Under the pieces are notes generated by a model that did no database searches, was not told the DNA's origin, and saw only the letters and a program-made list of their open reading frames with translations. DNA of 64,000 nt from assembly GCA_902607625.1 (NCBI GenBank), contig CACLKR010000005.1:1-64000 (forward strand), given 5' to 3'. The position numbers and the translations under genes were made by a program. How positions within the stretch are numbered: the stretch's first letter is position 1; every line of letters starts with the position of its first letter. Below, in pieces: positions 28,236-31,487 of the stretch. The stretch comes from an uncultured Pelagibacteraceae bacterium. Its GTDB lineage: Bacteria > Pseudomonadota > Alphaproteobacteria > Pelagibacterales > Pelagibacteraceae.

Positions 28236-29300
28236 TCAAGCTTTATCTTGATAGTCTTTCTGATGTTTTGGAATTCTTTTATCCGTTCCAAATAGCATAT
28301 GAGTCGACATATCTTCATGATATTTACTTGCTGGAACTTTTATCCCAACAGCTTCCGCAGTTTCTCTAATCAGCATTGGGTTTGCTCCGCAACAAACACC
28401 TAGGTAATTTATACCAAGACTATAAGCTTCTTTTGCAAATTTACCAATTTCATACCTATTACATTGCATTGGATCCAATGCGGTAGGAAATGGTGTTTTG
28501 TGAGGTGTATGACATGAGCATCCATTATTATCCGGTAAATTAAAAAAAGTTGGATGTTCTTTCGTCGTTCGATAATTTATAGGTAAAGCCGCTACATGAC
28601 ATTTCAAAGCTTTCCTAATTTCTTTAAGATAAGGCATCATCGTATTTGGTCCTCTAAAACAATTCATTCCTACCACATCGCCTCCGCGCTGTTCTAATTC
28701 TTTACAAGTATCTACAATGGACACTCCATCTCTCATTATATTTTCACCCATGGGCGCAATGGTAATGACACATGGAAGATTGGTTTTTTTCATCACTTTT
28801 AAGGCTGTATAAGCTTCTTCAGCATAGTAAAAAGTTTCTCCGATCAACATGTCTGCACCCTCTTCAACAGCCCATTCAATCATTTCAGAAAACATTTTCT
28901 CAACTTCCAAATGCGTTTTAGGATCTTTTTCATTCCAAATATTTGAATTTGAAATATTTCCGGCCATTAAATTGGGCTCTTTTCCAATTGGATTTGTTGC
29001 AACTTTTTTCGCAATTTTCAGTGCTGCTCTATTCAAGGGCTCTAACAATTTTTCTTTATTAATCACACGCATTTTTTCACGATGACCATTATAGGTAAAT
29101 GCCTGAACAATATCAGAACCCGCATGTTGAAAATCCCTATGCAGATTTTCTAAAGCTTCTGGATGCTCCAGAGAAACCATCGGAACAAATTCGCCAGATG
29201 CCATATAACCTCTTCTTTCAATTTCAAATAGAAAGCCCTCTGCACAAATTACAGGTCCAGAATTTAACCTTTCAATTAAATTTCTTTTTTTATTACTCAT
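28236..29300 (-). CDS. bhmT: betaine-homocysteine S-methyltransferase
   Basis: About 354 residues from the ATG at 29300, which has a GGAGG site 6 bases upstream; the longer frame to 29396 runs through the riboswitch. It is a homocysteine S-methyltransferase barrel. 'GPVICAEGFLFEIERRGY' is the N-terminus, 'VVGMNCFRGP' carries the first Zn Cys and 'YLGVCCGANPMLIR' the other two. It moves a methyl group from glycine betaine to homocysteine, giving dimethylglycine and methionine. Expression is very likely controlled by the SAM-II/SAM-V leader at 29303-29474. It joins the betaine-producing and dimethylglycine-oxidising genes of this window. Confidence 0.92.
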   Translation of the reverse strand: MSNKKRNLIERLNSGPVICAEGFLFEIERRGYMASGEFVPMVSLEHPEALENLHRDFQHAGSDIVQAFTYNGHREKMRVINKEKLLEPLNRAALKIAKKVATNPIGKEPNLMAGNISNSNIWNEKDPKTHLEVEKMFSEMIEWAVEEGADMLIGETFYYAEEAYTALKVMKKTNLPCVITIAPMGENIMRDGVSIVDTCKELEQRGGDVVGMNCFRGPNTMMPYLKEIRKALKCHVAALPINYRTTKEHPTFFNLPDNNGCSCHTPHKTPFPTALDPMQCNRYEIGKFAKEAYSLGINYLGVCCGANPMLIRETAEAVGIKVPASKYHEDMSTHMLFGTDKRIPKHQKDYQDKA

Positions 29301-29302
29301 TT

Positions 29303-29363
29303 TTAACCTCCATTGCAGTGCTTTGACATGCGTCGGGTGCACAATATGGTTAAATGCCCGGTC
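29303..29363 (-). promoter_or_regulatory. SAM-V riboswitch-like aptamer controlling bhmT translation
   Basis: On the minus strand, P1 is CGGG (29360-29357) with CCCG (29337-29334). The loop contains CAUUUAAC and UUGUGC. GUGC (29342-29339) can pair with GCAC (29321-29318) to close an H-type pseudoknot. The 3' pairing strand lies 6 bases before the GGAGG ribosome site (29311-29307), so SAM binding would hide the start region. SAM-V aptamers next to bhmT in SAR11 are established; the identification here is by motif and position, without a covariance-model search. Confidence 0.8.
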
Positions 29364-29383
29364 TTTTATTGAAATAAATTTCC

Positions 29384-29412
29384 AAAAAAAAACCACCGGC
29401 TAAAGCGGTGGT
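29384..29412 (-). terminator. intrinsic terminator after the SAM-II aptamer
   Basis: On the minus strand, ACCACCG pairs with CGGTGGT around a short loop, followed by about nine T residues. It sits 11 bases after the conserved GCUAAA of the SAM-II aptamer. The loop sequence (complement of 29399-29407) is a perfect 9-base match to the aptamer segment at 29431-29423, so an antiterminator is possible. Confidence 0.88.
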
Positions 29413-29418
29413 CTAGTA

Positions 29419-29474
29419 GGGTCGCTTTAGCAGGATTTTTAAAGCGCCCGCAATCTGATTCAACTCGGCGCTAT
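29419..29474 (-). promoter_or_regulatory. SAM-II riboswitch aptamer
   Basis: Minus-strand features match the SAM-II consensus closely. P1 is AGCGCC (29472-29467) with GGCGCU. The loop ends in GAUUGC, and the 3' part is an A-rich joining segment followed by the conserved GCUAAA. There are 11 bases between P1 and GCUAAA, as in the well-known SAM-II structure. It begins close to the predicted transcription start and is followed by a terminator, as expected for control of transcription by S-adenosylmethionine. Confidence 0.85.
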
Positions 29475-29480
29475 ATATTA

Positions 29481-29509
29481 ATTAGACCATTCTAATGTAT
29501 TATTGTCAA
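29481..29509 (-). promoter_or_regulatory. sigma-70 promoter of the bhmT operon
   Basis: Minus strand: a consensus -35 TTGACA (29509-29504), a 17-base spacer, and -10 TCTAAT (29486-29481). Transcription would start around 29474, just at the 5' edge of the SAM-II aptamer. It is the best promoter match noticed in the window. Confidence 0.75.
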
Positions 29510-29540
29510 ATAAAATCTAAATTAATTTAAAGGTTATAAC

Positions 29541-31487
29541 TTGAGTAATTTACTTAAAAACGAAAAGAGTCCTTATCTTAAACAACATGAGAATAATCCA
29601 GTCCACTGGCATCCATGGAATAAAAAAACTTTAAATAAGGCTAAAGAATTAAAAAAACCTATTTTCTTAAGCGTAGGCTATGCAAGTTGCCACTGGTGTC
29701 ATGTCATGGCACATGAAAGTTTTGAAGACAAAAATACTGCAGCTGTAATGAATGAAAAATTCATTAATATAAAAGTGGATCGTGAAGAAAGGCCAGATCT
29801 AGATAATGTATTTCAAAAAAGCTTAGCTATTTTAACAGGTACGCCGGGTGGTTGGCCTCTATCAATGTTTTTAGATGAGAATGGAGTACCCTTTTCGGGT
29901 GGAACATATTTTCCTCCAAAAGAAATGTATGGTAGGCCTTCTTTTGTAAATATTCTTAAACAAATTTCTGATTTCTATGTAAAAGATAAAGATAAAGTTA
30001 TTCAACAAGCTTCGCAAATAAAAGAGGTTTTTCAAAAAGATCAAAAAAAATCTTCTGTCATTGGCCAAAATTTAAATCCTCATCTTGAAGCTATGCTTAA
30101 TTATATTGATTTTAAATGGGGCGGTTTTCAAGGAAGTCCAAAATTTCCACAGTTTTATGTATTTGAAAGTTTTTTACACTTTTATAAAAAAAATAAAAAT
30201 AAAAAATTTTATGATGCTGTTAAAATTTTACTTAATAATGTCTGTTCAAGAGGTTTATATGACCACTTGCTTGGAGGAATAGCTCGATATTCAACAGACG
30301 ATAGATGGATCGCTCCACATTTTGAAAAAATGCTTTATGACAACGTCTTATTTATAAACTTGATGGGACAATTTTATCTTCAAGAACCAAATGAATATTA
30401 TAAAGAAAAACTGATACAAACTGTGGAATTCGTTAATAATTCATTTAAAAATAAAGAAAACCTTTTAGGATCTGCTTATGATGCCGACAGTGAAGGTATA
30501 GAAGGCAAATACTATGTTTGGGATGATAAAGAGTTAAGAAGTGTACTTGAAAAAGATTATAATCTTTTTGCTAAATATTATGACATTTCTGAAAATGGAA
30601 ATTGGGAGGGAAAAAATATCCTAATAGAAAAAAGTATCAAGCCAACGAAAGAAGAAAATGAAAAACTGAAAAAAATAAAAAATAAACTCTTAAGTATTAG
30701 GGAAAAAAGGCCAAAGCCCTTCTTTGATGACAAAACCCAAATTGATTTAAATGCCTACTGGACAAGCACTTTAATTTTTGTTGCAGAAGTTTTTAATAAA
30801 GAAGATTGGAAAAAATTATCCTTATCAAATTATAATTTAATAAAAAATCTTACTAAAGATGAAATATATCATTGTTATAAAGATAAAGATGGAGTGAAAG
30901 TTTTTCTTGATGATTATGCATATCTTGCTCAACTAATGATTAATTTTTATGAAACCACTGGGGAAATTAATTATTTAGATGATGCAAAAAAAATAGTTCA
31001 GCAAACTTGGGATCTATTTTATGATAAAGAAAATAAAATTCTTCAAAAAAATCCTATTAAACAGAATGACCTTTTTGTTCCACCTTTAGATATAAATGAC
31101 GGCAATGTACCTAATGGAAATAGTATATTTTTATTAAATTGCAAAAAACTTGAAGCAATAACTAACGATACTAAATGGCAAGATATGGCTAAAGAATTGA
31201 TACAAAGTTTTCATTCATTTCTCAATTTAAAATCGACACAAATGGTAAGCTATATTAAAAATTTAGACATATGCGAAGAATTAACAACTTTTACTTTCTT
31301 CGGAGATGTTAAAAAAATTAAAGAATTACAACAATTTGTTAAAAAAAATTACTTAAAATCTTCAACTTTAATTTACAAAGAAGATCCTAAAGAAAACTAT
31401 TTAGTTGTTTGTAAAAACCAAACCTGCTCAAATAAAATTAAAAGTATAGGGGAACTAAAATCTGTTGTAAAAAATTATGCCATATAG
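29541..31487 (+). CDS. thioredoxin-domain protein of the DUF255/YyaL (SPATA20-like) family
   Basis: A 648-residue protein. The N-terminal DUF255 thioredoxin-like domain has 'KSPYLKQHENNPVHWHPW' and the CxxC motif in 'GYASCHWCHVMAHESFED'. It also has 'GTPGGWPLSMFL' and 'WGGFQGSPKFPQ', then a long alpha/alpha barrel with 'HFEKMLYDNVLF'. The family is widespread but its biochemical role is not settled; a redox-linked or sugar-epimerase-like function has been proposed. It starts with TTG at 29541, which matches the family N-terminus. It overlaps the downstream transporter gene by 11 bp. Confidence 0.88.
   Translation: MSNLLKNEKSPYLKQHENNPVHWHPWNKKTLNKAKELKKPIFLSVGYASCHWCHVMAHESFEDKNTAAVMNEKFINIKVDREERPDLDNVFQKSLAILTGTPGGWPLSMFLDENGVPFSGGTYFPPKEMYGRPSFVNILKQISDFYVKDKDKVIQQASQIKEVFQKDQKKSSVIGQNLNPHLEAMLNYIDFKWGGFQGSPKFPQFYVFESFLHFYKKNKNKKFYDAVKILLNNVCSRGLYDHLLGGIARYSTDDRWIAPHFEKMLYDNVLFINLMGQFYLQEPNEYYKEKLIQTVEFVNNSFKNKENLLGSAYDADSEGIEGKYYVWDDKELRSVLEKDYNLFAKYYDISENGNWEGKNILIEKSIKPTKEENEKLKKIKNKLLSIREKRPKPFFDDKTQIDLNAYWTSTLIFVAEVFNKEDWKKLSLSNYNLIKNLTKDEIYHCYKDKDGVKVFLDDYAYLAQLMINFYETTGEINYLDDAKKIVQQTWDLFYDKENKILQKNPIKQNDLFVPPLDINDGNVPNGNSIFLLNCKKLEAITNDTKWQDMAKELIQSFHSFLNLKSTQMVSYIKNLDICEELTTFTFFGDVKKIKELQQFVKKNYLKSSTLIYKEDPKENYLVVCKNQTCSNKIKSIGELKSVVKNYAI

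Follow-up and report, generated by a model that had tools for sequence, protein, structure and literature searches.

The leader of bhmT in the window (the whole 64,000-nt stretch of DNA analysed here) very probably combines a SAM-II riboswitch of the OFF type, acting by transcription termination, with a SAM-V-like element behind it. One strand of the SAM-II pseudoknot is an exact complement of the loop and upper stem of the terminator behind it, and would act as an antiterminator when SAM is absent. Computation gave the elements of the leader, the exact complement and the finding that it is conserved with compensating changes, as well as a predicted bistability of the RNA. The leader is a real feature of a known kind; a tandem of SAM-II and SAM-V before bhmT has already been published.

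Organization of the bhmT leader

The leader lies on the minus strand, and all letters and coordinates of its elements were rechecked and confirmed. In minus-strand order, a putative promoter, the SAM-II aptamer, a terminator, the SAM-V-like element and a GGAGG motif precede the bhmT start codon (29300-29298). The succession SAM-II, terminator, SAM-V and methionine gene of a tandem leader is present, with the SAM-V half taken as a positional homologue. The tandem arrangement proposed by a sequence-only reading of this DNA was borne out in that the Rfam matches stand in the expected order with the terminator between them.

The putative promoter (29481..29509, minus strand) consists of the -35 hexamer TTGACA (29509-29504), a 17-base spacer and TCTAAT (29486-29481). 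It had been described as a consensus promoter, and the hexamers and spacer are as read, but the promoter scan, which demands an A as the second base of the -10 hexamer, did not call this site, where that A is missing. A leader promoter here is plausible, although weaker than was stated. Near-consensus promoters a few nucleotides ahead of SAM-II P1 are reported in the accessible text of PMC1273637.

The gene behind the leader (28236..29300, minus strand) encodes a protein of the homocysteine S-methyltransferase family (Pfam PF02574, E 2.7e-36), and no NCBIfam model matched the product above its cut-off. It is named bhmT because the bhmT of HTCC1062, with a similar protein start, stands behind the same kind of leader. 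Genes for a Sulf_transp protein, a DUF6691 protein and a rhodanese follow downstream. According to the part of PMC5069961 available to us, bhmT is among the four most induced HTCC1062 transcripts under sulfur limitation.

The SAM-II aptamer and the terminator

At gathering scores, Rfam matched neither SAM-II nor SAM-V in the whole window. Absence of the aptamers was rejected as an explanation, since a permissive scan of 29200-29700 recovered both elements. The SAM-II model RF00521 matched 29481-29406 with 35.3 bits (E 2.3e-6) and narrowly missed the gathering cut-off of 36; a trypanosome mitochondrial rRNA match of 14.8 bits in the same scan was set aside as chance. The covariance search suggested for the two models thus matched both, in each case under the gathering cut-off. 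Such a near miss of SAM-II is usual for Pelagibacterales, because the Rfam cut-off misses most copies there: matches at E<=0.001 occur in 290 of 397 genomes, and only 37 of the 397 pass the cut-off.

The aptamer (29422..29472, minus strand) was placed by RF00521 and by its kept P2 pairs. P1 is formed by AGCGCC (29472-29467) and GGCGCU (29448-29443), and P2 joins UUGC (29453-29450) with GC(U)AA (29431-29427) and UC (29458-29457) with GA (29423-29422). Among 63 distinct leaders, P1 is paired in 98.1% of cells and both P2 helices in 100%, so that both the stem and the pseudoknot of a SAM-II aptamer are present. The contact residues of the UUGC/GC-U-AA helix are intact in the window, and the first U of L1 (U10 in our mapping) is replaced by G in the window and in 13 more of the 64 leaders.

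The 3' strand of P2, hereafter strand A, is GCUAAAGCG (29423..29431, minus strand; DNA letters GCTAAAGCG, 29431-29423). Its positions 1, 2, 4 and 5 pair with the UUGC of L1, and UC is the partner of position 9 and the following A; all of these pairs are 100% kept, and we take them to map onto the SAM-II crystal structure. Positions 7 and 8 are partnerless in the aptamer model. The earlier proposal that GCUAAA is held in the aptamer can be retained and widened: it is held in P2, and since C29457-G29423 and U29458-A29422 also pair, the P2 pseudoknot takes up almost all of the antiterminator strand.

The intrinsic terminator (29384..29412, minus strand) consists of the helix ACCACCG-CUUUAGC-CGGUGGU and a U tract. 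The terminator scan called 29414-29390, with two overlapping terminator-like sites versus 0.4 +- 0.6 in shuffles, and the nine T residues previously noted are found at 29392-29384. In the 63 distinct leaders, 96.1% of the cells of the terminator helix are paired. The loop and the top two bases of the 5' stem make up strand B, CGCUUUAGC (29399..29407, minus strand; DNA letters CGCTTTAGC, 29407-29399), which is the exact 9-base complement of strand A, just as the sequence-only reading had it. In addition, a CC upstream of strand A can pair with a GG of the terminator 3' strand (the CC/GG extension). Position 8 has as its partner the uppermost base of the terminator 5' stem, which the terminator needs as well. 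A terminator and an exclusive antiterminator overlapping the aptamer, as in an OFF switch, are therefore seen at the level of sequence and predicted folding.

Proposed mechanism

Without SAM, the P2 3' strand GCUAAAGCG would pair with the terminator loop and the upper 5' stem CGCUUUAGC once these are transcribed, and the upstream CC could join the GG of the terminator 3' strand. RNA polymerase would then continue into bhmT and the genes behind it. Once SAM is bound, P2 would keep strand A, the terminator would form and transcription would end at the U tract. SAM binding in this genome, the order of folding and actual termination, like any translational role of the degenerate SAM-V element, are what we infer. 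A SAM-dependent switch between antiterminator and terminator had been suggested before, and the alignment, the predicted folding and a loop-shuffle control, given below, agree with it.

Conservation of the antiterminator in bhmT leaders

Relatives were drawn from the best 80 of 307 bhmT loci. With a pattern of GC[TA]AAA and a CC/GG-type terminator, 63 of them were kept, which together with the window gave 64 rows (63 distinct leaders, one kept row, L049, being titled OCS116), aligned with MAFFT. The remaining 17 loci did not fit and were dropped; by title, ten are SAR86, two are gamma- or unspecified Proteobacteria, and the last five (L027, L030, L034, L035 and L081, of which L035 has only 43 bases upstream) are Pelagibacteraceae, Pelagibacter or Alphaproteobacteria.

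Over the nine pairs and the CC/GG helix, 93.4% of 693 cells are paired in the 63 distinct leaders, versus 86.4 +- 0.7% when the 3' letters were shuffled (none of 500 shuffles as high) and 12.8-56.8% when the partner was slid by 1-3 columns. Cells changed on both sides number 39 versus 13.0 in shuffles. The two pairs with changes on both sides (positions 7 and 8; shuffles, 2.1) and the seven further pair types (shuffles, 6.8) are not above the shuffled level. Position 8 is paired in 63 of 63 leaders (C-G 40, A-U 22, G-U 1), and position 7 is GC in 37, UA in 14, AU in 2 and unpaired in 10; pairing is also lost at position 2 in 14 leaders, at position 6 in 10 and at position 3 in 7. Positions 7 and 8 change along with the terminator although they are free in the aptamer model.

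These data also bear on a different contact, in which the intact terminator loop would touch GCUAAAG as a kissing or pseudoknot interaction, with the terminator still forming and no antiterminator. With seven of the nine complementary bases inside the 7-nt loop, a loop contact is sterically conceivable. However, positions 8 and 9 pair with bases of the terminator stem, the CC/GG extension engages the 3' stem strand, and position 8 is paired in every distinct leader while the terminator pair at the same base is formed in 48 and broken in 15 of the 63. We consider this contact improbable and prefer the antiterminator.

A looser pattern, with positions 7-9 and the loop left free, matches 77 of 397 genomes. 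Among 30 loci from this pattern, one of them the window itself and others possibly from species already in the 64, C-G stands at position 8 in 27 and A-U in three.

On a tree of the bhmT coding sequences, position 8 changes nine times, its partner eight times and the pair state jointly nine times. On the starred branches of this tree, six of six independent pairs are concordant for position 8 (sign test p 0.031), and for position 7 an average of 6.3 of 8 agree with none opposite. A second tree was built from 119 columns of the leader, with A, B, the spacer and the terminator left out; it is poorly resolved (10 of 58 inner branches starred) and differs from the gene tree. Here position 8 changes seven times, its partner six times and both jointly seven times, and the independent pairs number one (position 8) and two (position 7) on starred branches, or six and six on all branches. 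Genomes seem to swap whole leaders, moving A and B together, so the count of independent compensations is uncertain: we claim at least two or three, not nine, and there may be only two or three. The sequence-only reading had named loss of the complementarity in homologous leaders as the result that would speak against it; the pairing is instead kept in homologous SAR11 leaders with compensating changes, and the alignment supports a 9-base antiterminator in bhmT leaders.

Predicted folding

Folding was predicted from secondary-structure energies, with masking as a proxy for a SAM-held P2. The two folds of the window are near balance, with -12.4 kcal/mol for the terminator and -11.9 kcal/mol for the antiterminator. 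In transcripts cut ahead of the terminator 3' strand, the A:B helix is in the minimum free energy structure in 64 of 64 leaders versus 1084 of 1920 shuffles of the part behind the core, by a lenient criterion; the mean energy is -9.1 versus -3.8 +- 2.1 kcal/mol in the shuffles. At the end of the U tract, the antiterminator (mean of its five central pairs) exceeds the terminator in 56 of 64 leaders, and in the other eight, one of them a tie, it is not predicted to be favoured without ligand. When the terminator loop was shuffled, core pairing exceeded the terminator in only 21 of 637 cases, which places the pairing between core and terminator beyond chance. With strand A and the next base masked, the terminator rises above 0.5 in 64 of 64, a result that is partly built in, as masking removes the competitor. 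When the leaders were extended by 110 bases, the antiterminator still exceeded the terminator in 46 of 64. For the full-length leader of the window, the antiterminator reaches 0.93-0.95, and the U tract pairs with a stretch that overlaps the SAM-V P1 strand.

A complement arising by chance or low complexity in an AT-rich leader could not be excluded from a single genome, and more than half of the shuffles above satisfy the lenient criterion. However, the pairing is kept across the 63 distinct leaders, the loop shuffles seldom reproduce it, and the same kind of complement is found in metX leaders with other terminator stems. Chance is accordingly the explanation to which we give least credence, and we regard it as very improbable.

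Other SAM-II leaders

In the metX leader of the same genome (MetX by NF001209), the corresponding pairing is CAGCUAA:UUAGCUG, and the full-length RNA is predicted to end in the terminator fold, which speaks against a general use of the switch. Among 30 loci of a sister family (L083-L112; MetX identity tested for L083 only), 22 metX leaders were readable for CAGCUAA:UUAGUUG, with 7/7 pairs in 20 and 6/7 in two. By eye, the g6 leaders L187-L189, L191 and L196 show UAGCUAA:UUAGCU(G), also given as AGCUAAA:UUUAGCU, and L190 shows GCUAAA:UUUAGC. The terminator stems differ among the bhmT, metX and g6 groups.

Use of this antiterminator by every SAR11 SAM-II was considered and rejected. By reading, seven SAM-II leaders of genera g3 and g4 that do not precede bhmT (L177-L183) show no GC-rich terminator, and the metY leader of the window genome does not fit either. 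That leader (L175 1400-1575) is a second tandem, with a SAM-II-like element that the Rfam search of the genome did not list, a terminator ACCGCC-UUAUUG-GGCGGU and a SAM-V of 66 bits. The terminator loop (UUAUUG) mismatches the SAM-II-like core, and both ligand-core adenines are present in its SAM-V.

As a separate observation, 12 loci with SAR86, gamma or unspecified Proteobacteria titles (L067, L069-L078 and L082) carry a SAM-II/SAM-V-like stretch upstream of bhmT relatives. It reads GTGATTTGATC...TTGC or variants, followed by GCTAAAA, and no terminator was found in it by script.

The SAM-V-like element

The SAM-V-like element (29305..29369, minus strand) matches RF01826 with 31 bits (E 0.004), under the cut-off of 41. 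By reading, P1 was assigned to CGGG (29360-29357) and CCCG (29337-29334), and P2 to GUGC (29342-29339) and GCAC (29321-29318). The Shine-Dalgarno sequence of bhmT, GGAGG (29307..29311, minus strand), lies at its 3' end with the ATG at 29300, and the earlier description of a pseudoknot ending at the ribosome site is accurate in this respect.

With the residue numbering of PMC6061858 (accessible part) carried over by position after GCAC, the ligand core U47-A50 of the window is UGCA (29317-29314): U47 and A50 are kept, A48 is G and A49 is C, and the SAM-V core is thus incomplete. A48/A49 are AA in 63 of 63 relatives and GC (29316-29315) in the window. The accessible text of PMC6061858 places U47, A48 and A50 at the SAM site of the SAM-V crystal. 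With A48G and A49C, a weaker U20:A48 triple and neighbouring pair would be expected. The GC at 29316-29315 may also stem from a sequencing error. The predicted accessibility of the Shine-Dalgarno sequence is 0.41 in the window versus a median of 0.59 in 37 direct-type relatives, six of which are as low or lower.

The second aptamer had been expected to stop translation of transcripts that escape termination. This part of the sequence-only reading is not supported for the window genome, as the two core adenines of all relatives are G and C here, and translational control by SAM through the window SAM-V appears doubtful. A damaged SAM-V in one member would offer a natural test of what each half contributes.

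The spacer between SAM-V and bhmT in relatives

HTCC1062 and 23 of the 64 leaders have the GGAG of SAM-V about 66-79 nt upstream of the bhmT start; direct and spaced leaders were told apart by reading the sequences (scripted start codons are wrong for some direct-type leaders). These leaders (L018-L021, L025, L029, L031, L043, L045, L046, L048, L050, L051, L056-L058, L061, L062, L064, L066, L068, L079 and L080; HTCC1062, L144 178-91, minus strand) share a possible extra module of three strands: strand 1 (GGAGAA..., the SAM-V end), strand 2 (...TTCTCC) and strand 3 (the Shine-Dalgarno sequence before the ATG), with either 1:2 or 2:3 pairing. The 1:2 helix has 9/9 pairs in 23 of 24 rows, the register having been chosen for it, and the 2:3 helix at least 8/9 in 22 of 24. 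When 12 of the leaders were folded, 2:3 formed in all 12 with the first 16 nt barred, and 1:2 formed in nine otherwise. This predicted exchange suggests that SAM-V in such leaders may act through an anti-Shine-Dalgarno relay and not directly on the bhmT Shine-Dalgarno sequence. Among the papers listed by literature searches for a three-strand module of this type, none dealt with it.

HTCC1062 also has a short frame of 23 codons (MNITSYYF...; L144, minus strand 151-80). Its ATG begins 15 nt downstream of the first G in the SAM-V GGAG, and it runs across the bhmT start in a different frame. In our numbering, this ATG is where the published 177-nt construct stops, so that strands 2 and 3 are absent from it. 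In L015, L063 and L065, 131-141 nt separate the SAM-V GGAG from the called bhmT start; in L063, a short frame right behind the GGAG (MSKMKYQVNNCSVSIK...) overlaps the bhmT start.

SAM-II in the full-length RNA

According to the accessible part of PMC11508383, the linker of the HTCC1062 tandem is responsible for the lack of a SAM-II response and linker oligonucleotides restore it, the cause being left open there. A pattern from the oligonucleotides in that part matches one of 11 genomes. The leader found was taken as that of HTCC1062 because the intergenic region 1127293-1127553, as given in the accessible text of PMC2704228, ends at its start codon. It contains an 8-bp antiterminator, CUAAAGCG:CGCUUUAG; with the U tract as U82-U90, strand A is 44-52 and CGCUUUAG is 66-73. 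In its predicted fold, the antiterminator reaches 0.99-1.0 and the terminator 0, and the U tract is paired with the SAM-V end.

The published result could mean that SAM-II is vestigial in the full-length RNA and that SAM-V alone regulates; the 177-nt HTCC1062 RNA, in which the SAM-II domain is unresponsive to SAM (PMC11508383, accessible part), points this way. However, a refolded full-length RNA is already beyond the decision point, and the fold predicted for it would hide SAM-II. Moreover, SAM-II P2 is kept without exception, and the window SAM-V is altered at two positions invariant in 63 relatives, whereas the one L1 departure of SAM-II (U10G) is shared with other leaders. A vestigial SAM-II seems to us unlikely, marginally more so than the loop contact considered above.

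It is conceivable, although we lean against it, that SAM-II is a one-time sensor that binds SAM only during synthesis of the terminator region; after the polymerase has passed, the antiterminator would be locked, helped by pairing of the linker with the terminator 3' strand and U tract, and SAM-V would be the sole sensor in the finished mRNA. The predicted full-length folds of HTCC1062 and the window are consistent with such a lock after the decision. If true, this would explain why SAM-II falls silent in full-length RNA and why linker oligonucleotides rescue its response; in the window genome, with the SAM-V core lost, bhmT would then be controlled only by the SAM-II decision.

Comparison with known systems

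The antiterminator is the less known part of the tandem; its principle is known, and priority is not claimed. In the accessible text of PMC9481103, 149 tandems are counted, and SAM-II is always ahead of a terminator in the original 120 examples. The literature on the SAM-II half of the tandem, in its accessible parts, describes it only as preceding the terminator. In S. meliloti metZ, SAM binding has been predicted to give a terminator (PMC9373788, accessible part), so the antitermination principle was already known.

The closest relative is the HTCC1062 bhmT leader, which has the same gene, the same order of elements, a nine-U terminator and SAM-V behind it (PMC2704228, PMC9481103 and PMC11508383, as far as accessible). 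In comparison with it, the window has a 9-bp helix, is without the extra module between SAM-V and bhmT, and carries A48G/A49C in SAM-V. The SAM-V-like element resembles the metY SAM-V (PDB 6FZ0; PMC6061858, accessible part) in its pseudoknot and in the Shine-Dalgarno sequence at its 3' end, but two ligand-core adenines are replaced in the window.

The SAM-II half is similar to the canonical alphaproteobacterial SAM-II (RF00521, metA/metZ), which has P1, the P2 pseudoknot and often a terminator behind it (PMC1273637, accessible text). In the 30 best-scoring alphaproteobacterial loci, looked through without a count, the canonical form has a long P2b (e.g. CCGACC/GGTCGG) where this is shown, and the terminator 5' strand, where read, faces P2b. 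The SAR11 SAM-II, by contrast, has a P2b of two pairs, and its antiterminator would be the very strand of the ligand core. A conserved antiterminator made from the ligand-binding strand would give a concrete and testable answer to the puzzling silence of SAM-II in HTCC1062.
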